Of a stretch of DNA of 38,051 nt, positions 7,176 to 36,908 are shown in pieces. The DNA comes from a virus. A model generated the notes under the pieces. The model saw only the letters and a list, made by a program, of their open reading frames with translations. It did no database searches and was not told where the DNA came from. Every line of letters begins with the position of its first letter. The stretch's first letter is position 1. The stretch lies in the IMG/VR virus record IMGVR_UViG_3300027733_000110, positions 1-38,051 of that record. The stretch is one strand, 5' to 3'. Both the position numbers and the translations under genes were made by a program.

Positions 7176-9094
7176 GCCAGACCATCCCCGCACGCATTGT
7201 CATTCGGCGCGATACGGCAGCAGCGTGGACCGCTGCAAACCCCGTGCTGCTCAGCGGCGAATGGGGGTTTGAAACGGATACCAGAAAGCTCAAGATCGGC
7301 AACGGCAGCAGCGCCTGGAATGCGCTCAGCTACTACTCCACCGGCGGCGGCAGCGGCAACACCATCCTCAGCGGCACCGGCGCCCCCAGCAGCGCCTTGG
7401 GTGCCAACGGTGATATCTACCTAGACACTGCCGCCACGCGCCTGTATGGCCCCAAGGCGGATGGCCTGTGGGGCTCTGGCGTTTCATTGATCGGCGCCGC
7501 CGGAGCAAACGGGACGAACGGAACCAACGGGACGAACGGGACGAACGGCACAGCAGCCACCGTCAGCGTTGGCACGGTGACCACAGGCGCTGCGGGATCG
7601 TCAGCAACGGTCACGAACACCGGCACCTCCAGCGCCGCCGTGCTGGCGTTCACGATTCCCCAGGGCGCAGCGGGAACGAACGGCACGAACGGCACGAACG
7701 GCACAGCCGCCACGGTGGCGGTCGGCACGGTCACCACGGGCGCTCCTGGATCGAGCGCTGCTGTTACGAACACCGGCAGCAGTTCTGCCGCTGTGCTGGC
7801 ATTCACCATCCCTCGCGGCGACGCAGGCGCAGCAGGAGCCAACGGCACGAACGGCACAGCCGCCACAGTGGCCGTTGGCAGTGTCACCACGGGTGCGGCA
7901 GGCAGCTCCGCCAGCGTCAGCAACGGAGGCTCCAGCAGCGCGGCTGTCTTCAACTTCACCATCCCCCGTGGCGATACCGGGGCCACAGGCGCCACCGGCG
8001 CTACCGGCCCCGCTGGGCCTGTTGCTGGCAGCAGCGGCCAGCTCGTCTACAACAACGCAGGCAGCGCCGCTGGGGCATCGGTGGGCGGCGGTCTGACGCT
8101 TTCTGGTGGCGTGCTTGGCGCGGACACGATCTGCCTCACCGCTGCCGAATACGCGGCGCTTGCATCTCCCGTTTCCGGCAAGCTCTACCTAATTCGCCGA
8201 GAATACACCAGTCCGCCTGAATCGTTGTTGCCTGCTATTTATGCGGGATACAAAAACGGTGTGCAGGTGTTCTATGACGATTCGGGTGATGCTGGTAGGT
8301 TTTGGAAGACAAGGGCAAACGCGGCTGATAACTTTTGGAACAGCGTTACATGGGCACCATCGCTGAACCTGTTCTGTGCCGTGGCACTCACCGGCGTCGG
8401 AAACAGGGTGATGACATCTTCAGATGGAACAAACTGGACTACTAGAACAAGCGCAGCGGATAACCAGTGGAACAGCGTTACATGGGCACCATCGCTGAAC
8501 CTGTTCTGCGCAGTTTCAGGCAGCGGCACCGGAAACAGGGTGATGACATCTCCAGATGGAACAAACTGGACTACTAGAACAAGCGCAGCGGATAACACTT
8601 GGAACAGCGTTACATGGTCGCCATCGCTGAACTTGTTCTGCGCAGTTGCAAGCAGCGGCACCGGAAACAGGGTGATGACATCACCGGATGGAGCGACATG
8701 GACGGCTCGAACAAGCGCAGCTGATAACAGTTGGCGTTCCGTTGTATGGGCACCATCGCTGAACCTGTTCTGCGCAGTTTCAAGCAACGGCGTCGGAAAC
8801 AGAGTAATGACATCACCGGATGGAGCGACATGGACGGCTCGAGCAAGCGCAGCTGATAACAGTTGGAACAGCGTTACATGGGCACCATCGCTGAACCTGT
8901 TCTGCGCAGTTTCAGGCAGCGGCGCCGGAAACAGGGTGATGACATCACCGGATGGAGCGACATGGACGGTTCGAACAAGCGCAGCTGATGTCCAGTGGCT
9001 CAGCGTTACATGGGCACCATCGCTGAACCTGTTCTGCGCGGTGAGTTTCGACGGAGTTGGAAACCGCGTCATGACCTCCACGAGTTTCCCATGA
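7172..9094 (+). CDS. Tail fibre/adhesin with collagen-like and beta-propeller-like repeats
   Basis: The 640-residue protein is modular. Residues 1-60 form a compact head (RDTAAAWTAANPVLLSGEWGF type) common at the start of phage fibre proteins. Residues about 110-290 hold GTNG/GATGATG collagen-like runs alternating with three copies of a module ending SSAAVLAFTIPRG. Residues about 390-640 hold six 44-residue units around WAPSLNLFCAV...GNRVMTSPDG, resembling beta-propeller or sialidase-like repeats and possibly forming a receptor-binding head. It lies between head-completion and tail genes, unlike lambda. The stop overlaps the next ATG (ATGA). Confidence 0.8.
   Translation: MSQTIPARIVIRRDTAAAWTAANPVLLSGEWGFETDTRKLKIGNGSSAWNALSYYSTGGGSGNTILSGTGAPSSALGANGDIYLDTAATRLYGPKADGLWGSGVSLIGAAGANGTNGTNGTNGTNGTAATVSVGTVTTGAAGSSATVTNTGTSSAAVLAFTIPQGAAGTNGTNGTNGTAATVAVGTVTTGAPGSSAAVTNTGSSSAAVLAFTIPRGDAGAAGANGTNGTAATVAVGSVTTGAAGSSASVSNGGSSSAAVFNFTIPRGDTGATGATGATGPAGPVAGSSGQLVYNNAGSAAGASVGGGLTLSGGVLGADTICLTAAEYAALASPVSGKLYLIRREYTSPPESLLPAIYAGYKNGVQVFYDDSGDAGRFWKTRANAADNFWNSVTWAPSLNLFCAVALTGVGNRVMTSSDGTNWTTRTSAADNQWNSVTWAPSLNLFCAVSGSGTGNRVMTSPDGTNWTTRTSAADNTWNSVTWSPSLNLFCAVASSGTGNRVMTSPDGATWTARTSAADNSWRSVVWAPSLNLFCAVSSNGVGNRVMTSPDGATWTARASAADNSWNSVTWAPSLNLFCAVSGSGAGNRVMTSPDGATWTVRTSAADVQWLSVTWAPSLNLFCAVSFDGVGNRVMTSTSFP
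8339..9091 (+). repeat. Six tandem 132-bp coding repeats
   Basis: Units begin at 8339, 8471, 8603, 8735, 8867 and 8999 (the last is shorter). Most share the DNA string AGCGTTACATGGGCACCATC, while the intervening codons vary. The DNA-level similarity points to recent duplication or gene conversion, and the array may expand or contract to alter receptor specificity. Confidence 0.95.
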
Positions 9095-14293: not shown

Positions 14294-16530
14294 ACGACTT
14301 CGGCTTCAGCGTGAACATGCTGCCGCTCAAGAGCAGCACCAGCTCTTCGGGGAGCTCAGCAGCGGCCCAGCGCTACGGCACCATGAGCGTGGCCGCCACG
14401 GCGCTGTCCGGCCAGCTCCCCCCGCCCGCGAACGCCGCCGCAGCTGCTGGCAATTCGCCGCTGCAGGTGCCCCAGGCGGCCATGGTGGTGGGCGAGCCGA
14501 TCCCGGTGGTGTTCGGCCGGAGGCGCGGCAACGTGGGTGGCGTGCTGACCTTCCCCAAGGCCACCGAGGCGCGGTTTGAGAACACCTCCACCACCATCAC
14601 GGCGCGTTACCACTGCGTGCTGGGTGAGGGCTTGCTGGGTGATGTCGAGGTGCGCGATGCGCGCCAGGGTGAGTGCCGCCCTGGTGCCGTTTACAGCCAG
14701 AACTACAACCAGCGCGCTGGGTCATGGGCCGCCGGCAACGTCGCCACGGTCCAGAGCGGTTACACCGTGCCGGCATTCCCCAGTTTCACCGGCGGTGGCG
14801 GCAACTACCAGGGCATCAGCACCATCGAGTTCAGCGGCACCTATGCCGGCGGATCTGATCAGTGGCGCATCGGCTGGAATGTGTTCGTGCGCAATGGCCT
14901 GGTGATCGAGCGCGGCCGGCTGCTTGATTCCACCGCTGGGAGCAGCGACAACATCGCCGATTTGATCCTGTGGGCCCTGCAGCGCAGCGGCCGGGTGCCC
15001 GATGCCCTGATCGACTTCGACAGCTTGACCGCTGCGGCGCGATTCGTTGAAGCCAACGGCCTGTGGTGCAATGGCGAGTTCAGCAGCTCCACCAACCTGG
15101 GCGACTGGCTGATCAAGCTGCTGCCAGACTTCCTGCTGCGAGAAACCAAGATCGCCGGCAAGTTTGGCCTGCGGCCTTTGTTGCCCACCAACTCAGACGG
15201 CAGCATCAACACCGGCACGATCACACCGGCCTGGAGCCTGACGGAGGCGGCAATCATCCCCGACAGCTTCCAGATCGAGTACGCCGAAGCCAGCAGCCGG
15301 CGGCCGGTGGCCATGGCGATGCTGTGGCGCCAGCAGCAAGACGCCACCGATGTGCCGATCGTGCGATCCCTGGCGGTGGGCGATGTCAATGCCAGCGGCC
15401 CGGTTGAGCAGCACGACCTGAGCCAATACGTCACGACCGAGAATCACGCGGGCAAGGTCGGCGCCTATCTTTATGCCCGGCGCACCCTTTCAACGCACAC
15501 CGCCACCGTGCGGCTCAAGGCCGGCAGCCAGACCGGCACCATTGCGCAGGGCGACATCGTGCAGATCTACTTGCAGAACTCCAGCAGCCGTGAGCCCGCC
15601 GATGTGTTCAATCGCTACTACCAGGTGGAATCAGTGGCGCAAGCGATCAGCGGTGAAGAGACGCTGCAGCTCAGCCATTTCCCGGTTGATTCCAGCGGCC
15701 GGAGCCTGATCGCGCTGGCCGTGACCCGCGCCAGCGGGCCGGGCCAGGTGCTCTCCAGCAACCGTACCGGCGGCGGCTGTGATGTGGCCGGAGCGTCGGC
15801 CAACACCACGATCCCCGCAAAGAACACCAGCGGCACGCCGATCAGCGGCCAGGCGTCCACTTATTGGGCGGCATCGGGGCAGTCGATTGACCTGTTCCGC
15901 CCGTGGACTGAGCTGCCCCGCGACGCACCACCCGGCGCCGGCAATGGCACCGGCGTTCCTGGCAGTCCAACACGCGCTGGAGCGCCCGTGGCGGGCCCTG
16001 ATGGTCCGCTCGGCCCAAGCGATGGCACCGGCGGCCTTGGTCCCTGCCCGTTTGGGTATTACCGCATCACCAGCAATGTTGATTTTGCAAGGATCAACGC
16101 TTTCGATCTAGCCATTTCAGCAGGTGACACGATCATCTCTAAAAACGTGCCAACCGTTTCTTCGCTTGGCAATGTCAACAACGGCATCTTCATCACCGAG
16201 CGTTACCGGGTGTCATTCACCAACATGGACGGCAACGCCGAAAGCAGAGACTATTCAGGCGTCATCGGCTCAACCAACGGTGATACATTCAGAGCGCCTT
16301 TCAGATTTACCACGACCGAATATTGCTGCAACGCATCAGATGGCACCCTAGGCTCTTGCACTTCAACACGCAGATACAGGGTGAAGCCAGGCGACACGCT
16401 CTGGGACATCGCCGGCCGTTACTACGGCGACCCGACCAGGTGGCCCGACATCTACAACGCCAACCGGGGCATCATCGGCTCTGATCCCAACCTGATCTAT
16501 CCAGGCCAGAACCTGACCGTCCCAACGTAA
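14290..16530 (+). CDS. Tail tip/hub protein with C-terminal LysM
   Basis: This 746-residue protein is in the place of the lambda J/tail-hub protein. Residues about 55-460 carry hub-like beta domains (PIPVVFGRRRGNVGG at about 72; LGDWLIKLLPDFLLRETK at about 270). A Gly/Pro/Ala-rich linker (about 540-580) follows. Residues about 585-690 have a more AT-rich coding sequence. The last 51 residues (696-746, YRVKPGDTLWDIAGRYYG...) form a LysM domain that should bind peptidoglycan. This suggests local wall engagement at the tail tip. Confidence 0.8.
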   Translation: MNDFGFSVNMLPLKSSTSSSGSSAAAQRYGTMSVAATALSGQLPPPANAAAAAGNSPLQVPQAAMVVGEPIPVVFGRRRGNVGGVLTFPKATEARFENTSTTITARYHCVLGEGLLGDVEVRDARQGECRPGAVYSQNYNQRAGSWAAGNVATVQSGYTVPAFPSFTGGGGNYQGISTIEFSGTYAGGSDQWRIGWNVFVRNGLVIERGRLLDSTAGSSDNIADLILWALQRSGRVPDALIDFDSLTAAARFVEANGLWCNGEFSSSTNLGDWLIKLLPDFLLRETKIAGKFGLRPLLPTNSDGSINTGTITPAWSLTEAAIIPDSFQIEYAEASSRRPVAMAMLWRQQQDATDVPIVRSLAVGDVNASGPVEQHDLSQYVTTENHAGKVGAYLYARRTLSTHTATVRLKAGSQTGTIAQGDIVQIYLQNSSSREPADVFNRYYQVESVAQAISGEETLQLSHFPVDSSGRSLIALAVTRASGPGQVLSSNRTGGGCDVAGASANTTIPAKNTSGTPISGQASTYWAASGQSIDLFRPWTELPRDAPPGAGNGTGVPGSPTRAGAPVAGPDGPLGPSDGTGGLGPCPFGYYRITSNVDFARINAFDLAISAGDTIISKNVPTVSSLGNVNNGIFITERYRVSFTNMDGNAESRDYSGVIGSTNGDTFRAPFRFTTTEYCCNASDGTLGSCTSTRRYRVKPGDTLWDIAGRYYGDPTRWPDIYNANRGIIGSDPNLIYPGQNLTVPT

Positions 16531-27557: not shown

Positions 27558-27726
27558 GGGAGTCTGAGGGTGAACGGTGATTGGTCATTGCTTCTCGCAT
27601 CAAGCCTCGAACCCACACCGTGATCGGCATGTCGAGGCTGTTGCAATGCTGGCGGATCTTGTCGTACAGATCAGGCTGAACCGTGATCTGAATCAGCCGG
27701 CGGTTGTCGTCTTTGCGGGTGGTCAT
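27550..27726 (-). CDS. Ribbon-helix-helix (Arc-like) regulator
   Basis: The 58-residue protein has the typical RHH layout: a basic arm (TTRKDDNRR), a strand (LIQITVQPDLY), then helices (DKIRQHCNSLD; ITVWVRGLMREAM). The ATG at 27726 is chosen because it overlaps the upstream fusion gene's stop region. It probably regulates its own operon or other phage promoters. Confidence 0.7.
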   Translation of the reverse strand: MTTRKDDNRRLIQITVQPDLYDKIRQHCNSLDMPITVWVRGLMREAMTNHRSPSDSHA

Positions 27727-29228
27727 GCCGGCACCTCCTGAATCATTTGCATACCTGGCCATTGGCCGCTGGCTTGTCCGAGAAGGTTGGTCTTCAGCCA
27801 GACCTTGCAGCCGTCGCGGCGTGCGGTCGCCACAAGGTCAGCTACCCACTCAAAATCAGGCGCAAACGCTGGATTCTGGCCAACATTCTCCGATTGAGCG
27901 CCTATCACGATCCAGTCAATGCCCTCAAGGTTTGAAAACCTGATTGGTTCCAATAACGGCTCCAGTGACAGCCACTTGACTTTGACGCCTGACACCTTGC
28001 CCATGGCGGCCAGGGTCGGCTCAGCTCGATGCTGATCGTCAACCGATGCGCCAATCCAGCCGCTGGCAGGAAGCTGCAGACGATCGTAACGCTGCGGAAA
28101 CTTTGTCAGATACAGGTACTCCCACTGTGGGTTGGCCACGGTGGAGGCAACAACCCGATCAATCCACTCTTGGGGCACCCAGGCGCCAAACAGGTCGGCC
28201 ATGGAGCAAACAAAGACGCGACCAAAGGCCGGCTCATCTTGTGCACGTTGAGGCACCGACGTGTTCTGTGGCGCTTCCAGTCGTTCGTGGTGAAACAGTG
28301 GGGTGAAGCCGGCCGGGTAGTACGGCTTCATGTCGCGCGACTCAGCAATGGTTCGGGCGTAGCAATAGCTGCAGCCATGATTGCAGCCGGTGACGGGATT
28401 CCAGCTCCACATTGCCCAGCCGATTTCGGTGCCTTTCTGCTGGTTGAACGTGGCCTTGCCCTTGGGCTTCGGATAGCTGAACGGGTTGCCTTTGTGATCA
28501 ACCAAGGTGATAGTGGCGTCTTCCTGCAGCCTGGGCGCTTCGGGCTGCGGCCTGGTGGCGGCCTGCTGTCGCTCCCGCTGCTGAGCTTCGCGGTGCGCCT
28601 TGTCAAGCGCCATGGTACCGGCCTGCACCTGCGGCAGCAGATCGGGCGCCACCTTCGCTACGCGGGCAGCCTGCTCCACTGAGCGAGAACTGGCGCCGAC
28701 GGCCTTGGCGGCCTGGGCAGCGACGTTGCGACCCTGTTTGCGTTGCTCGGCCAGGACCGACGCTGCAGCCATCTGGGCGGCCGTTTCCGCGACGGGTGAA
28801 AGGTACCGCAGATCTGCGGTACCTTTATTGGCTGGCTTTCCGGGTGCCGCCGATCTACCGGCCTCGGCCATGCGTTCGGTTGCCGCCGGCTGCAGCAGCT
28901 CCCGCACACTTAGTGCCACGACGGCACGCTGGCCAGCATTCAGGTGCCGCCGATGCAGGTTCGCGCTCAGGCTGAACTGCACAGGGTCGTCGCCGTCATA
29001 GGTCTCCAGCACCACCTCCTGATTGGTGCGGTAGCAGGCGACCAGGCGGTTGCGGCCATCGAGCAGGGTGCCGTCACGCCACACGATGATCGGCTGCTGC
29101 AGGCCGCGTTCTTTGATGTCGGCGCACAGCTCGCGCAGCTCATCACCCTCGACCATCGGAAACAGATCAGCAGCCGGATGAATGCCGGTGATCTCGTCGT
29201 AGTGACGCAGAATCTCAGTCCAGTCCAT
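27723..29228 (-). CDS. ParB-like domain fused to three-cysteine radical-SAM-like protein (DUF5131/Gp37-Gp68 type)
   Basis: The 501-residue protein joins two modules. Residues about 5-110 are a ParB N-terminal/sulfiredoxin-like domain (GLQQPIIVWRDGTLLDGRNR at about 42-61), followed by a KorB/ParB-like helical part (about 115-220, VGASSRSVEQAARVAKVAPD). Residues about 265-501 are a DUF5131-type domain with WNPVTGCNHGCSYCYAR. Its C282-x3-C286-x2-C289 motif is that of radical SAM enzymes and should hold a [4Fe-4S] cluster. The ATG at 29228 overlaps the stop of the upstream TcmP-like gene. The substrate is unknown; DNA-targeted chemistry is suggested only by the ParB part. Confidence 0.85.
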   Translation of the reverse strand: MDWTEILRHYDEITGIHPAADLFPMVEGDELRELCADIKERGLQQPIIVWRDGTLLDGRNRLVACYRTNQEVVLETYDGDDPVQFSLSANLHRRHLNAGQRAVVALSVRELLQPAATERMAEAGRSAAPGKPANKGTADLRYLSPVAETAAQMAAASVLAEQRKQGRNVAAQAAKAVGASSRSVEQAARVAKVAPDLLPQVQAGTMALDKAHREAQQRERQQAATRPQPEAPRLQEDATITLVDHKGNPFSYPKPKGKATFNQQKGTEIGWAMWSWNPVTGCNHGCSYCYARTIAESRDMKPYYPAGFTPLFHHERLEAPQNTSVPQRAQDEPAFGRVFVCSMADLFGAWVPQEWIDRVVASTVANPQWEYLYLTKFPQRYDRLQLPASGWIGASVDDQHRAEPTLAAMGKVSGVKVKWLSLEPLLEPIRFSNLEGIDWIVIGAQSENVGQNPAFAPDFEWVADLVATARRDGCKVWLKTNLLGQASGQWPGMQMIQEVPA

Positions 29229-30148
29229 CACAGCTCTACTCCACGGTTGAACTCATCGCGGGTCAGAAACAGAAACCGCTGCAGTTCGTGAAACGCGTCC
29301 GGGTTCCGCTTGCGCCACACCACTTGCGGTGGCGCCGTGATCTTTTTTTCCAGCCTCTGCGCCGCTTGCAAGCATTCGCTGGTGATCTCGTCCCGCCACT
29401 TAGATGGCGCCGTGATCAGGTACGCCCACTGGTCAGCGCCGCCGACAGAAAACAAGCACGCATCGTGCCAGTTTTGCAGCAACGACTCGCACAGAACCTC
29501 AACGCGCGTAAACCATTCGCGTCGCTTCCCTTCCTCAATGCGCTTCAACCCGCCAACGTTGCAGCCAAGCGTCGATAGCGATGTGGTGAACTTTGGGCAG
29601 TTGCGCACGAACTCTGGCGTCAAGCTCCAGTCTTCGATGTGGTTCGGGTCGTTGTAGATGAAGCAGGCCGCATCTCGATTGATCAGTGGCGGCTGCAGTT
29701 CTTGGGAGTTGGCGTTGAGGTAACGGACCTCTCCGTATCCCTTGACGTGCACGCCGCGGGAAAGCTCCATCCACTCATTGGCCGCCAGCCAGCTGCCCGT
29801 GTTCTTGAGCAGTTCGGAATGCGTGATCGCCTGTTTTTCGCAGCTGGTCAGCCGCACCGGCAGGCGGTTGCGCCGCACAAGCCAGTCGGCGTGACGCAGG
29901 AAGATCCCAGGCGAGCAGCCGTCACCGAAGGCGGCTCGGGGCAGCAGCTCGCCTTGCTCTGTAGGGACGTAGGGAACGCCGTCACCGGCGGTCAGGTCGT
30001 ACAGCAGCACTTCCTTGACCGGAGGCATGCCACGGCTAAGGACGCCCATTTCTCTGCCCAGCAACCTGTTAAGCAGGAAGTGCTTGCATGGCGTGATTCC
30101 TGACTTTCCAGGTTGCTCGCTTTTTTTCCGCGTTGGTGCGGCGACCAT
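29228..30148 (-). CDS. Methyltransferase-like three-Cys-motif partner (TcmP-like)
   Basis: The 306-residue protein has a helical start (KHFLLNRLLGREMGV) and then a class I methyltransferase-like motif I, YDLTAGDGVP (50-59). GDGCSPGIFL (76-84) and RLTSCEKQ (99-106) follow. Proteins of this plan (DxFAGxG...GSP) are known as partners of three-cysteine DUF5131 proteins. Here the pair overlaps by one base. The start at 30148 keeps the whole N-terminal helix; the open frame continues much further upstream without coding character. The SAM role is inferred. Confidence 0.65.
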   Translation of the reverse strand: MVAAPTRKKSEQPGKSGITPCKHFLLNRLLGREMGVLSRGMPPVKEVLLYDLTAGDGVPYVPTEQGELLPRAAFGDGCSPGIFLRHADWLVRRNRLPVRLTSCEKQAITHSELLKNTGSWLAANEWMELSRGVHVKGYGEVRYLNANSQELQPPLINRDAACFIYNDPNHIEDWSLTPEFVRNCPKFTTSLSTLGCNVGGLKRIEEGKRREWFTRVEVLCESLLQNWHDACLFSVGGADQWAYLITAPSKWRDEITSECLQAAQRLEKKITAPPQVVWRKRNPDAFHELQRFLFLTRDEFNRGVEL

Positions 30149-30161
30149 TAAGAATGCCGGC

Positions 30162-30231
30162 AACCAGGCCGGTCGATAGGACACAGGGCTGGCCGTGGCC
30201 AGGAGCGGGGCCGGTTGCAGCCGGCCTGGTT
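30162..30231. repeat. 11-bp inverted repeat AACCAGGCCGG...CCGGCCTGGTT
   Basis: Perfect 11-base arms are separated by 48 bases, within which CTGGCC-GT-GGCCAG forms a second perfect stem. It lies just upstream of the leftward TcmP-like start. It could be a cruciform, operator pair or structured leader. Confidence 0.7.
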
Positions 30232-30251
30232 CCGCATGAGCAGACCATACA

Positions 30252-30268
30252 GGCTCAGAACTCCGACC
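30252..30268 (-). promoter_or_regulatory. Recurrent element GGTCGGAGTTCTGAGCC
   Basis: This minus-strand copy is identical over 17 bases to the + strand site at 33690-33706. It lies 103 bases before the TcmP-like ATG and points toward it. Confidence 0.5.
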
Positions 30269-30291
30269 GTCAAGCCTCAGCCTTGCCACTC

Positions 30292-30310
30292 CGTATCCGC
30301 CACGGATACG
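30292..30310. promoter_or_regulatory. Operator-like inverted repeat CGTATCC/GGATACG
   Basis: Perfect 7-bp arms with a GCCAC spacer end 23 bases before the ATG of the RHH gene at 30334. This fits an autoregulatory operator. Confidence 0.5.
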
Positions 30311-30333
30311 CTGTCTGGGCTTGACCCCCACCC

Positions 30334-30495
30334 ATGCACCCCATCCCCGTACGGCTCCCGGCCGATCTGATCCACTGGCTGGATCAGGCTCGGGACTCTG
30401 AGCCGCGTTCCACCGTGATCCGCCAGATCCTGCGCGATGAGAAACGGCGCCGCGAGCGCGCCCAGGCCCGCAACGATCGCCAGGCCCGCCCGTGA
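30334..30495 (+). CDS. Small ribbon-helix-helix protein
   Basis: The 53-residue protein reads IPVRLPADLIHWLDQARDSE, then STVIRQILRDEKRRRE. This is the CopG-like strand-helix-helix fold with a highly basic tail. It is the first gene of the replication operon, and its stop overlaps the primase-helicase ATG (TGATG). It is likely an autoregulator acting on the inverted repeat just upstream. A copy of the recurrent element is embedded in its coding sequence (30384-30404). Confidence 0.7.
   Translation: MHPIPVRLPADLIHWLDQARDSEPRSTVIRQILRDEKRRRERAQARNDRQARP
30384..30404 (+). promoter_or_regulatory. Recurrent element inside the RHH gene
   Basis: TCAGGCTCGGGACTCTGAGC followed by C encodes part of QARDSEP. 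It is a GGCTC-N8-GAGCC imperfect palindrome, 90 bases before the primase-helicase ATG. Coding constraint could explain it. Confidence 0.3.
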
Positions 30496-32711
30496 TGACC
30501 TTGACACCTGAGCTGCTGGCGGAGCTCCAGCAGGTGGACAGCGACTGGCGGCTGATCCCCTGCGATGGACTCAAGCGGCCTGTGGACCCGGCCACCGGGG
30601 ACATGAAGACGGACTGGAGCCACCACACCTACGACGCCGACGGCATCGCCGAGCTGGCCGATTCCAGCTTCGTGAAGGCTGTCGGCCTGGTGCTGGGTGA
30701 AGCGTCCGGCGTGATCGCCGTGGACTTTGACGGCACCGGCGCCGTGGCGATGTTCAAGCAGGTCTACGGCCGGCTTTGGTCTGACCTGCCTCCCACGGTG
30801 GCCTGGTCATCCGGCGTGATCAATCGCCGCCAGATGGCCTTCAGAGTGCCGGCTGATCTGTGGCCCCATCTGCGCGGCCGGCGGGTCTGGCACAACGATG
30901 CCGGCCGCATCGTGCTTGAGCTGCGCGGCACCGGGCACCAGTCCGTGATCGCTGGGGCGCACCCTGACACCGAGGGTTACCGCTGGATTGATGGCCGCTC
31001 CCCTGCCGATCTGCAGGTGGCCGATGCGCCGGATTGGTTGTTGTGGCCCATGCTCAAGGCCGCGACGGAACCGGCAGCAGCTGAGCACCAGCCGGCTTCT
31101 GATGCCGACGTGCCCAGGGCGCAGGAGCTGTTGAGGCACATTCCGCCCTGTGAGGACTACGACCGCTGGCTGCGGGTCGGCATGGCGCTGCACAGCGTCT
31201 CGGCGGGCCTGATCAGCGACTGGGTGAAGTGGTCGAGCGGATGCAGCAACTTCGATGAAGACGAGTGCATGGCGAAATGGCAGAGCTTCAAGAGCAGTGG
31301 CACCACCATCGGCACCCTGCACTACCTGGCCGACACCCTCGGCGGGTTCCGTTACCGCCGCCCCCAAGGTGAGCAGCCGCCGGGAAAGGCCCCAGGCGCA
31401 GCCGCTGATGCCGGGGCGGCTGACGTTGATGAGCAGCCACCGGCCACTTACCGCGAGCTGTTGACGGTCACGCTGGCGGCCATCCGCGGCCAGGACGACG
31501 ACACCGAGATGGAAGCCCGGGCCGAGATCATGGCGCGGTTCCGGCGCACCGATGGTCAGATCAATGCAGCGCTGTTCCGGCTGCTCACCGAGCAGGAGCA
31601 GCACCGCGCCGGCACCGCGCCAAAGGAGCGGCCCACCTACCGATCGATCGACTTGTCGAAGGTGATCAGCCTGGATTGGCTACTCGAGGGCTTCCTGCCC
31701 GCCAACGATCAGGCGCTGCTCTATGCGCCCGCTGGCGCTGGTAAGACCACCGCGGCGCTGGCGATGGCGTTTGCCATCATTGATGGCACTGGCTTCCTGG
31801 ACCGCGAGGCGCAGCCGCAGGCCGGCAGCGTCCTGATGATCGCCACCGACTCGGGCCCGGCGCCATTGATCCGCACCCTGCAGGATCTGGGCAAGGCCGA
31901 GCATCCGGCGATCAGCCCAACCCACGAAGGGCTCCGGCTCCATGTCTGGGCCCATGATTCCGATCAGGCGGCCATGGGCTGGGATGCCGGATTGCGCGGC
32001 TGCTTGGCTCTGCTCGACTTCGTGCAGAGCCAGAAGATCGCCCTGGTGATCATCGACAGTTGCAAGGCCGCCACCTCTAGAGCTGATCTCAATTACTGCG
32101 ACAACGGCCAGGTGACGGCGCTGCTCACCTTCGTCAAGGAAGTGATCTGCAGGCACACGGCGGTGCTCTGGCTCAACCACGACGGCACCGGCAGCGGTGA
32201 AGCGGCAGGCGCCAAGGCATGGAAGGAGATCCCCTCCATCGTGCATGGCATCCAGCTGGTCACCGAAGGCGGTGACGATGACGGCTTTGAGGGACCGCCG
32301 GACAAGTCGTCAGGGAAGAAGCGCATCAGCACCTGGCGCCGGACCTGGATCGTGCGGAAGTGCCGGCAGGGCACAGCCCGGGAGTTCAACTACCAGATCG
32401 ACGAAGACACCGGCCGGCTTGCCGTCACCGCCATGACGGAAGTCATCCGCGACGTGCGGCACGGCGTCGGGAAGCTGCTTTGGGATGCATTGCAGGGCGG
32501 GAAGCCATCATTGCACCGGCGCGAGATCATCGCCCAGCTGGGCAAGGCCAAGGGCTACAGCAGCGGATCGGTGGCCAACAGCCTCACGCGGGCCAGCGGC
32601 GGCCGGCGGCCCATGGTGGCCAGGGTTGGCCCGATGCCGGGCCACTGGAAGCTGACGCCGGTGGCCCGGGAATGGTTCGAGCGGAACGGGGATCAGCCGA
32701 TGCCGCCGTGA
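30495..32711 (+). CDS. Primase-polymerase/helicase replication protein
   Basis: The 738-residue protein has an N-terminal prim-pol domain (about 10-190) with the acidic motif VDFDG (76-80) and GHQSVIAGAH (about 147-156). A PriCT-like helical domain follows (about 205-290, DYDRWLRVGMALHS). A RecA/RepA-like ATPase comes next, with Walker A YAPAGAGKTT (410-419) and Walker B LVIIDSCKAA (about 515). A winged-helix-like end completes it (about 650-720). It should start and unwind phage DNA replication, and the palindromic candidate origin is directly downstream. Confidence 0.88.
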   Translation: MTLTPELLAELQQVDSDWRLIPCDGLKRPVDPATGDMKTDWSHHTYDADGIAELADSSFVKAVGLVLGEASGVIAVDFDGTGAVAMFKQVYGRLWSDLPPTVAWSSGVINRRQMAFRVPADLWPHLRGRRVWHNDAGRIVLELRGTGHQSVIAGAHPDTEGYRWIDGRSPADLQVADAPDWLLWPMLKAATEPAAAEHQPASDADVPRAQELLRHIPPCEDYDRWLRVGMALHSVSAGLISDWVKWSSGCSNFDEDECMAKWQSFKSSGTTIGTLHYLADTLGGFRYRRPQGEQPPGKAPGAAADAGAADVDEQPPATYRELLTVTLAAIRGQDDDTEMEARAEIMARFRRTDGQINAALFRLLTEQEQHRAGTAPKERPTYRSIDLSKVISLDWLLEGFLPANDQALLYAPAGAGKTTAALAMAFAIIDGTGFLDREAQPQAGSVLMIATDSGPAPLIRTLQDLGKAEHPAISPTHEGLRLHVWAHDSDQAAMGWDAGLRGCLALLDFVQSQKIALVIIDSCKAATSRADLNYCDNGQVTALLTFVKEVICRHTAVLWLNHDGTGSGEAAGAKAWKEIPSIVHGIQLVTEGGDDDGFEGPPDKSSGKKRISTWRRTWIVRKCRQGTAREFNYQIDEDTGRLAVTAMTEVIRDVRHGVGKLLWDALQGGKPSLHRREIIAQLGKAKGYSSGSVANSLTRASGGRRPMVARVGPMPGHWKLTPVAREWFERNGDQPMPP

Positions 32712-32741
32712 TTTCCCTTGATAGCGTCCGTTCCCAAGTGA

Positions 32742-32770
32742 CTCTATGTACTAAAAACCCTGTCATAGAG
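32742..32770. repeat. Inverted repeat CTCTATG/CATAGAG
   Basis: Perfect 7-bp arms (32742-32748 and 32764-32770) flank a 15-base A-rich loop, followed by AGAGTTTTAA. The region is much more AT-rich than its surroundings. It may be a weak terminator for the primase-helicase gene or part of the origin. Confidence 0.55.
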
Positions 32771-32785
32771 AGAGTTTTAAGGAGA

Positions 32786-32865
32786 TCACCAGGCAGTCAT
32801 CATGTGACTCCGCTAGTCCAATTTCAAAATTGACACAGCGTGATCACATGGTGATCCCCTGGTGA
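32786..32865. repeat. 80-bp three-tier palindrome, candidate replication origin
   Basis: Perfect inverted-repeat blocks share one centre (between 32825 and 32826): TCACCAGG/CCTGGTGA (32786-32793 and 32858-32865), CATGTGA/TCACATG (32801-32807 and 32844-32850), CGCT/AGCG (32811-32814 and 32837-32840) and CAATTT/AAATTG (32819-32824 and 32827-32832). In all, 28 of 40 base pairs are complementary. It lies in an AT-rich island after the primase-helicase gene, suggesting an origin or a dimeric-protein binding platform. Confidence 0.8.
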
Positions 32866-32881
32866 CAAGGCCAAACGCAAG

Positions 32882-32902
32882 TCAGGCTCTGGAGTCTGAG
32901 CC
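32882..32902 (+). promoter_or_regulatory. Recurrent element TCAGGCTCTGGAGTCTGAGC(C)
   Basis: It ends 62 bases before the ATG of the exonuclease-like gene and 17 bases after the palindrome. It is an imperfect GGCTC-N8-GAGCC palindrome. Confidence 0.45.
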
Positions 32903-32964
32903 AATGGAGTCACCTGGAGCCGTTCACCACGCGCGCGCGACCCCCATCACCACCCCCACCACCC

Positions 32965-33651
32965 ATGCCCACCCCCACCACCTGGCTCCAACCCATCCCC
33001 GGCCTGCACCGGCGCGACCCTGAGCACCGCTACTGGCTTGGCGACGTGGAGTTCCCGATCTCGGTCACCGGCGTGATCGGCTGCCTGAAGTCGGACTACG
33101 CCATGGAGCGCATTGAGGCGACGCGGGAGGTGTGGCAGCCCAGGGGCAACACGGCGCACCGAGCGCTGGAGCTGATGATGCTGACCACCAAGGGCGCCCC
33201 GCGCACGATCGAGCAGGTGCGCCACGACATTGCCGAGCTCGGGGCCCTGGCGATCGGGGACTACAGCGACTGGATCCAGCCGCTGCTGGAGCATGACCGC
33301 TGGGACCAGCTGCAGATCATCGCCAGCGAGCGCCCCACCTGCTGCCTCAGGCGCAAGGTGGCTGGCACCTTTGACGTGGCCTACATCGACGAGCAGGGCC
33401 GGCGGATCCTGGCCGACCTGAAGAGCCTGGGCAGCGAGAGCAGCAGCACCTACAGCACCGCCGCGCAGTTGGGCGGCTACATGGCCCTGGAAGCCACCTG
33501 GGGGAACCATTACGACGCAGGCCAGACCATCTGGGCCCGGCCTGGCAGCACCACCTTCAGCCCGCTGTACTCCCGCGCTGAGTGCTTGCTGGCGTGGGCC
33601 GGGGCCTGGGCAACCTGGCGTGCTCGGGACTCTGAGCTTGGATTTGTCTGA
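32965..33651 (+). CDS. PD-(D/E)XK exonuclease (Cas4/RecB-like)
   Basis: The 228-residue protein has the RecB-nuclease order of motifs: H65 (NTAHRALE), E122 (ASERP), D137 (AGTFDVAY), D151-x-K153 (ILADLKS) and Q168 (AAQLGGY). Such phage enzymes trim DNA ends in recombination or replication. The partner ssDNA-binding protein at 20939 could act with it. No adjacent annealing protein is seen. Confidence 0.85.
   Translation: MPTPTTWLQPIPGLHRRDPEHRYWLGDVEFPISVTGVIGCLKSDYAMERIEATREVWQPRGNTAHRALELMMLTTKGAPRTIEQVRHDIAELGALAIGDYSDWIQPLLEHDRWDQLQIIASERPTCCLRRKVAGTFDVAYIDEQGRRILADLKSLGSESSSTYSTAAQLGGYMALEATWGNHYDAGQTIWARPGSTTFSPLYSRAECLLAWAGAWATWRARDSELGFV
33622..33637 (+). promoter_or_regulatory. Recurrent element GCTCGGGACTCTGAGC
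   Basis: It lies in the last codons of the exonuclease gene (ARDSELGFV), upstream of the element at 33690. The same codons carry the motif in the RHH gene at 30384. Confidence 0.3.
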
Positions 33652-34164: not shown

Positions 34165-34379
34165 ATGCCACCGACAGCCTTCTGGGCCGCACCGTGCACG
34201 CCCTCGCTGAGGGCTTGTACATGGCCGGCCACAGCGACTGCTGGCAGGCTGAAACCTGCAAGGTGCTGCTGTTGCACGCAGCGGCCGAGTTGATCGTGCT
34301 CGAGCAGCAGGCCGGCCGGCCCTTAACCTTGCAGGACGCCTGCCAGTTCCTTTGCCGTGGTGCGGAGGAGCAGGCATGA
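34161..34379 (+). CDS. Small hypothetical protein
   Basis: The 72-residue, mainly helical protein (VHALAEGLYMAGHSDCWQAE) has three Cys. Its ATG overlaps the previous stop and its stop overlaps the next ATG. No family is recognised. Confidence 0.55.
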   Translation: MNATDSLLGRTVHALAEGLYMAGHSDCWQAETCKVLLLHAAAELIVLEQQAGRPLTLQDACQFLCRGAEEQA

Positions 34380-34654
34380 CCGAATCAACCCTTGAGCGCA
34401 TTCGGCACGACCTGCAGCAACTCATTGAAACCGCCGCAGCCGAAGTGGAGCTCACGCAGCAGGAGACCGCAGCGGCCCTTGAGGCCGCCTCTGGGGCGCC
34501 TGCAATCGCTGCGGCCTATGACCAGGGCCGCCAGGACGAGCGCGCTCGTGTGCTGGCGCTGCTGGCCCACCAGCAGGAGATGTTGGGCAGGGCTGGGCTC
34601 AATGCGATCAGCCTGGCCACTCTGAGGCGAGCGCTGGAGGTTGGGGAAGGGTGA
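34376..34654 (+). CDS. Helical hypothetical protein
   Basis: The 92-residue protein has a coiled coil over most of its length (LERIRHDLQQLIETAAAEVE). It is coupled to both neighbours, including the helicase whose GTG overlaps its stop. It may be a helicase partner, but this is only positional. Confidence 0.55.
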   Translation: MTESTLERIRHDLQQLIETAAAEVELTQQETAAALEAASGAPAIAAAYDQGRQDERARVLALLAHQQEMLGRAGLNAISLATLRRALEVGEG

Positions 34655-36030: not shown

Positions 36031-36908
36031 AACCCGACTACCAAGGCGACAGCTGGGCCATCTATTTGGCCGACTGCATTGAAGTCATGAATGGCTTGCC
36101 GGACGGCATCATTGACCTTGCCATTTTCTCGCCGCCATTTTCTGATCTGTTTGTCTACTCAGATTCCGAGCGCGACATGGGCAACTGTGGCAGCCATGAA
36201 GAGTTCATGGAGCATTATGCCTATTTCACAGAGGCTCTGTATCGAGTGCTCAAGCCTGGCCGTATTGCCTGCGTGCATTGTTCAGACCTGCCAGCACGCA
36301 AGAGCAAGGATGGATTCATTGGCCTGCATGACTTTGGCGGCGATCTGGTCCGTGCCCATCAGGCCGCCGGATGGGTCTACCACGCTCGCTGCACGATTTG
36401 GAAAGACCCTGTGATTGAGATGCAGCGCACCAAGGCTTTGGGCCTGCTCTACAAGCAGCTGAAAAAGGACAGCACGCGCAGCCGGGTGGGAATGCCTGAT
36501 TACATGCTCTTCTTTCGCAAGGATCAAGAGAACCCCGATCCCGTGACCCATGACCCTGAGGATTTGCCCGTGGGCATGTGGCAGGAGCTGGCGTCGCCTG
36601 TTTGGATGCAGGTCAATCAGACCAAAGTGCTGAACGGCAGGATGGCCAAAGGGCAGGAGGATGAGCGCCACATCTGCCCGCTTCAGCTGGACGTGATCGA
36701 GCGCTGCCTGACCCTCTACAGCAACCCTGGCGATCTGGTGCTCGACCCGTTCAACGGCATCGGCAGCACTGGCTACCAGGCCGTGAAGATGGGCCGCCGC
36801 TACATCGGCGTCGAACTGAAGCCCGAGTACGCACGCCAGGCCGCCCGATTCTTGGAGCAGGCCGAGGGGCAGTCAACGTCGCTGTTTGACTCGGCCTCGG
36901 CAGCCTGA
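36027..36908 (+). CDS. DNA methyltransferase (beta-class N4/N6 type)
   Basis: The 293-residue enzyme has motif IV SPPF (35-38) before motif I DPFNGIGST (240-248), the order of beta-class amino-methyltransferases. SPPF/SPPY is most frequent in N4-cytosine enzymes but also occurs in N6-adenine enzymes. It would protect phage DNA from host restriction; no cognate restriction enzyme is seen. The start overlaps the helicase stop. Confidence 0.9.
   Translation: MKPDYQGDSWAIYLADCIEVMNGLPDGIIDLAIFSPPFSDLFVYSDSERDMGNCGSHEEFMEHYAYFTEALYRVLKPGRIACVHCSDLPARKSKDGFIGLHDFGGDLVRAHQAAGWVYHARCTIWKDPVIEMQRTKALGLLYKQLKKDSTRSRVGMPDYMLFFRKDQENPDPVTHDPEDLPVGMWQELASPVWMQVNQTKVLNGRMAKGQEDERHICPLQLDVIERCLTLYSNPGDLVLDPFNGIGSTGYQAVKMGRRYIGVELKPEYARQAARFLEQAEGQSTSLFDSASAA

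Follow-up and report, generated by a model that had tools for sequence, protein, structure and literature searches.

The window analysed here, the whole 38,051-nucleotide stretch of a virus record, carries the terminase, portal, head and tail genes of a siphophage-like virus. A nucleotide search of the region against annotated phages gave no match, and relatives of the flanking gene are found in Cyanobium and Synechococcus contigs and, distantly, in Synechococcus phage S-CBS3; a related primase gene is carried by S-LBS1 from Lake Bourget. On the strength of these relatives, the host is most likely a freshwater picocyanobacterium. We specifically analyzed the gap between a primase-helicase gene and an exonuclease-like gene, together with the corresponding gaps of about 27 freshwater picocyanobacterial phages and proviruses. 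As contigs are often fragments, statements of absence made below are local. The primase-helicase combines a Prim-Pol domain, a PriCT-2 domain, an AAA_25 domain (a RepA-like ATPase) and a predicted C-terminal winged helix. The features of the locus are as follows.

30492-32711, plus strand: primase-helicase, the proposed initiator (Pfam PF09250, PF08707 and PF13481, all above cut-off; PHROG DNA primase).
32379-32708, plus strand: codons of the last 110 amino acids, the predicted winged-helix domain and proposed iteron reader (AlphaFold2, Foldseek).
32712-32964, no strand: intergenic region of 253 bp between the primase-helicase and exonuclease-like genes, the proposed replication origin.
32735-32745, plus strand: iteron 1, CAAGTGACTCT, second-best site of the window with a matrix built from relatives only.
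32742-32770, no strand: 7-bp inverted repeat within the most AT-rich stretch (32740-32779), a candidate unwinding element.
32784-32794, minus strand: degenerate iteron GCCTGGTGATC of the outer left arm, read from the sequence; clearer in L047 (GGTCACATG) and in the L085-L089 clade (GTTCAC).
32795-32805, minus strand: degenerate iteron ACATGATGACT, read from the sequence, overlapping the next copy; clearer in L047 as AGTCACAAT.
32801-32811, plus strand: iteron CATGTGACTCC of the inner left arm, top site of the window (matrix score 18.6).
32818-32833, no strand: AT-rich core CCAATTTCAAAATTGA on the symmetry axis, retained in the L085-L089 clade.
32840-32850, minus strand: iteron CATGTGATCAC of the inner right arm, fourth-best site of the window.
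32848-32858, plus strand: degenerate iteron ATGGTGATCCC, read from the sequence and aligned in relatives.
32857-32867, plus strand: degenerate iteron CCCTGGTGACA of the outer right arm, read from the sequence and aligned in relatives.
32906-32916, minus strand: iteron CAGGTGACTCC, outside the palindrome, third-best site of the window.
32965-33651, plus strand: exonuclease-like gene (PHROG exonuclease, E=4.9e-9), which flanks the origin and is not the specificity determinant.

Elsewhere in the window, a reverse frame of 466 amino acids (29228-30628, minus strand), unmatched, overlaps the start of the primase-helicase (30492, plus strand) by about 137 bp, and the true start of one or the other may lie further in. 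A gene at 27723-29231 (minus strand) encodes a ParB-like N-terminal domain fused to DUF5131, and a 132-bp tandem repeat (5.5 copies, 8316-9039) lies at the 3' end of a tail-fibre-like gene.

The highest-scoring 80-bp symmetry of the 38-kb window is a nested palindrome at 32786-32865, where 28 of 40 positions pair in blocks of 8, 3, 7, 4 and 6 bp about a single axis between 32825 and 32826, exactly as the original prediction had described it; the runner-up scores 25. Simulation did not produce a score of 28, either in 60 Markov-1 runs over the whole window (maximum 27) or in 3000 runs over the intergenic region (maximum 24). The palindrome had been placed directly after the prim-pol/helicase gene, which agrees with a reading frame ending at 32711 and an array spanning 32735-32916, and the further 7-bp inverted repeat is found where it had been reported (CTCTATG at 32742-32748, CATAGAG at 32764-32770) and is kept in the four closest relatives aligned. 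The description of the region as AT-rich within a GC-rich genome holds in relative but not in strict terms: the GC content is 53% in the gap and about 64% in the genome, and the AT-rich DNA beside the iterons consists of the most AT-rich 40 bp of the gap (32740-32779, 65% AT) and the AT-rich core. Poor conservation of the arms, or changes in them without compensation, had been named as grounds for abandoning the idea. Instead, the axis is conserved and the arms change compensatorily: relatives pair at 21-31 of 40 positions about the same or nearly the same axis (L038 lowest, with 21), the 15 compensatory cells in the arms were matched by 2 of 500 shuffles, and the arm covariation score was 0.179 versus 0.026-0.077 for slid controls. 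Cumulative GC skew over the whole window, also proposed as a check, has its minimum at 36167 and its maximum at 15078, with no extremum at the site; it is uninformative and lends no support to an origin.

Alignment with relatives resolves the palindrome into degenerate 11-bp iterons of consensus CATGTGACTCC, oriented oppositely about the core CCAATTTCAAAATTGA (left arm ←←→, right arm ←→→) and clearest in L047. With a weight matrix trained on four relatives, the window left out, the four best sites of the whole 38 kb all fall within the 253-bp gap, and two of them (32735 and 32906) lie outside the palindrome. The copies in the window are degenerate, with an 8-mer repetition of 3.8 that is barely above the simulation maximum of 3.4, so the clustered short repeat typical of iteron origins is weak here by repetition alone and clear in the relatives. 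The basic unit is a short iteron with copies both within the palindrome and beyond it: the symmetry claimed originally is real, but its three tiers are a by-product of how the iterons are laid out, and other families use other layouts.

An iteron array, of differing sequence, sits at this position in every one of the 21 gaps tabulated, and its density there exceeds that in the rest of the locus 14- to 146-fold. About 13 iteron words were found, each largely confined to its own gap; those of the other families are CCGGACAA, GCGGGAAT, ATGAATGG, GCCATAGC, TGCTGAAC, AGCCAACA, ATCGGCAA, AGCCCACA, AGGGATCC, GGTATCCA, GGGAACTG, ATGTGAAC and ATGTGACT, the consensus words being partly hand-aligned and chosen partly by eye. 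The table of words against gaps is near diagonal, with exceptions among related pairs such as AGCCAACA/AGCCCACA and AGGGATCC/GGTATCCA. Repetition is far above simulation in most families and slightly above it in the window, L033, L042, L090, L091 and L101, and the arrays of other families are mostly head-to-tail direct repeats of a specific word with weaker symmetry. In the cultured phage S-LBS1 the primase gene is followed by a CCTAACC repeat in 11 copies, whereas no iteron array was seen in the gaps inspected of S-CBS3, which has a RepA helicase. The S-LBS1 array lies at the end of its record (L111:8238-8642, S-LBS1 34237-34641), where no feature is annotated, and the record stops inside a repeated stretch. 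Other arrangements were also observed. In a Cyanobacteria MAG contig (L107:1259-2459) the gap contains a series of about four origin-like units in tandem, of which three have TTCAC-type iterons and the last, adjoining the nuclease gene, has TCAC-type iterons (GTGACC), possibly a duplication followed by a change of specificity; at L051:1395-4001 and L090:2-2617 the replicase frame continues through the array, which places the origin inside a coding extension. A further motif, GCANNGGATCTGA, is enriched across families whose iterons are unrelated (14 of 22 gaps versus 3.4 expected; L110, L072, L050, L031, L041, L056, L108 and others). It emerged from a search for an origin motif common to the families, but it is absent from the window and so has no part in our explanation.

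Which part of the replication module follows the iteron word was examined with 27 replicases, whose pairs are related by descent and not phylogenetically independent. Iteron similarity correlated with identity of the C-terminal 75 amino acids (Mantel rho 0.45, p 0.001) and with the helicase core (rho 0.42, p 0.001), and weakly with the primase domain (rho 0.16); for the adjoining exonuclease the correlation was not significant (rho 0.14, p 0.095). The same word was found in 1% of pairs with C-terminal identity below 0.3 and in 100% of those above 0.9 (10 pairs). Iteron identity thus follows the helicase and the C-terminal ~75 amino acids, not the primase domain or the flanking nuclease; the C-terminus and the helicase core are hard to separate outside a few natural swaps. 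Comparisons that tell the parts of the module apart are the following: (i) L109 and L110 are a near-minimal natural swap, with identities of 95% (core), 92% (N-terminal 230 amino acids) and 60% (C-terminus) and modest variation elsewhere too, and their words are unrelated (ATCGGCAA vs AGCCCACA), (ii) L041 and L091 share 80% of the core and 45% of the C-terminus and have the words GCGGGAAT and ATGAATGG, (iii) the window and L051 (the contig of L024) are 70% identical in the primase domain but differ in helicase and have unrelated iterons, (iv) the exonuclease-like gene is 87% identical in L035, though the L035 iterons are unrelated, and (v) the window and the L085-L089 clade have unrelated primase domains, while the helicase family is related and the origin layout and axis are the same. 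In this last comparison nearly every copy is altered, and altered alike, from TGTGACTC in the window to TGTGAACT in the clade, whose sites read TGTGAAC(TT). One pair is discordant, L057 and L031, with C-termini 79% identical and iterons that differ in their flank bases. The palindrome, the iterons and the way in which these change together and in step with the helicase and its C-terminal domain can all be read directly from the aligned sequences, and the concerted changes and compensatory arms look like the binding sites of one changing protein. As the site sequence changes whenever the C-terminal domain changes, site and domain behave as a swappable lock-and-key cassette.

The candidate reader is the C-terminal domain itself. 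The structure of the full-length protein was poorly predicted (mean pLDDT 51), and therefore only the AlphaFold2 model of this domain was used (mean pLDDT 83, elements H-H-H-E-E-H). Winged-helix domains predominate among its top PDB hits (Foldseek probability up to 1.00, E ~0.03), and we assign it to this fold with good confidence as a prediction. A search for the same winged helix outside replicases, for instance fused to a nuclease as in Odn, matched only contigs already known to bear a replicase.

Taken together, these comparisons favour the original suggestion of a replication origin or of a site where a dimeric protein assembles stepwise, in the form of an origin built of an iteron array that adjoins the initiator gene and co-varies with its predicted DNA-binding domain. 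The intergenic region 32712-32964 is very probably this origin, with iterons bound by the C-terminal winged helix of the primase-helicase and with helicase and origin forming one cassette. By analogy with SaPI Rep, Cch2, P4 alpha and pRN1, we infer binding, ring loading, unwinding, priming and the direction of replication. Primase-helicase molecules would bind the iterons through their C-terminal winged helices; the near-symmetric array about the AT-rich core would place two oppositely facing sets of them, plausibly two helicase rings; the AAA_25 domain would then melt either the core or the neighbouring AT-rich DNA (32740-32779), after which Prim-Pol would prime. Helicase and origin would evolve as a single cassette, the sequence specificity being swapped or drifting in concert.

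Other explanations fit parts of these data. The repeats might be operators that bind a transcription regulator of the downstream nuclease/helicase operon and have no role in replication: the gap lies immediately upstream of these genes, the winged helix is a frequent fold among regulators, and BlaI, MarR and IdeR domains were also among the hits of the fold search. We nevertheless regard this as unlikely, given that the repeat sequence tracks the primase-helicase and not a separate regulator, that the gap has no forward sigma-70-like promoter (the sole promoter-like site is on the minus strand), and that arrays are also present where no exonuclease homologue was found downstream (L085-L091). 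Autoregulation by the primase-helicase itself is compatible with the origin reading. Recognition of an extruded DNA stem-loop, rather than of iteron sequence, would be in line with pRN1, for which a ~100-bp stem-loop after the prim-pol/helicase gene is the origin element required, a similar one having been noted in phage BIP-1 (PMC4234260); coupling of the word to the C-terminal domain, and the mostly direct repeats of a specific word with lower symmetry in other families, make it quite improbable. A centromere for the ParB-like protein of the window has in its favour the domain match (PHROG 4715, E=1.5e-10) and the iterons typical of some centromeres, and it was rejected as highly improbable because no ParB-like gene was found near the arrays of 31 related loci, compared with flanks of a few kb only, and because the fusion to DUF5131 points to another role. 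Equally remote is a structured RNA, a hairpin of the plus-strand transcript ending or regulating the primase-helicase message, which would account for the stability of the whole gap when folded as RNA (z-score -4.87, equalled by no shuffle) but not for iterons outside the hairpin that share the word of those inside, for the head-to-tail, less symmetrical repeats of other families, or for scans of the gap that gave no terminator-like site, no Rfam family and only insignificant microRNA matches.

The proposed iteron origin resembles several known systems. For SaPI Rep and SCCmec Cch2, the short iterons follow immediately after the helicase gene and are bound by the C-terminal domain of its product (PMC7581432). 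The proposed window origin likewise lies directly downstream of its helicase gene, and its reader would again be a C-terminal domain, here a predicted winged helix that co-varies with the iterons. The helicases of the staphylococcal islands are of the DUF927 or D5/Primase_Cterm type, whereas in the window, whose host is most likely cyanobacterial, Pfam finds neither of these but AAA_25, a RepA-like ATPase with a RecA fold, which is fused to a Prim-Pol of the archaeo-eukaryotic type. The helicase of phage P4 alpha belongs to SF3. In P4 alpha, one protein likewise joins an origin-binding winged helix, a helicase and a primase, and acts on repeats, although its primase is of the Toprim type (PMC4234260). 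The pRN1 protein ORF904 has a Prim-Pol, a helicase and a C-terminal winged helix, and its origin, a ~100-bp symmetric element, lies after its own gene (PMC4234260), yet pRN1 has an SF3 helicase and a long stem-loop without iterons, while the window has AAA_25 and iterons, and iterons are present in the other cyanophage gaps as well. In the Vibrio cholerae satellite PLE, the DNA-binding domain of a RepA_N initiator and the origin iterons co-vary and swap as a module, and cognate pairs are required; there, in contrast, the domain is N-terminal, the iterons are three of ~30 bp, and two specificity groups exist among five PLEs against ~13 words in the cyanophage gaps (PMC8263062). RSF1010 shares a RepA-type hexameric helicase and iterons at oriV, but its RepA, RepB and RepC are three separate polypeptides, with RepC reading the iterons (PMC4234260).

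Helicase-linked iteron origins (PMC7581432) and the swapping of initiator DNA-binding domains with their origins (PMC8263062) are thus already known. The novelty lies in the combination of a RecA-fold AAA_25 Prim-Pol protein with an iteron origin, in the group of phages concerned, in how many specificities occur and in the C-terminal swaps found in nature. Among the papers searched, cyanophage and iterons are mentioned jointly in a single one, on a Vibrio phage and its satellite, and cyanophage origins with Prim-Pol replication appear essentially undescribed. The data predict the origin of the cultured phage S-LBS1, and the idea is therefore directly testable. We are slightly inclined to think that the single-protein initiators of freshwater cyanophages (Prim-Pol, RecA-fold or other helicase, C-terminal winged helix) are numerous and diversify fast, that each is locked to an origin word of its own, and that a swap of only a ~70-amino-acid C-terminal domain and a ~300-bp origin switches replicon identity. 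Incompatibility of co-infecting phages, or defences that target origins, as with Odn against PLE, could drive such switching. With ~13 matched pairs of winged helix and DNA word at one syntenic position, natural domain swaps included, this set suffices to test how winged helices choose their DNA and what makes phages change their origins time and again.
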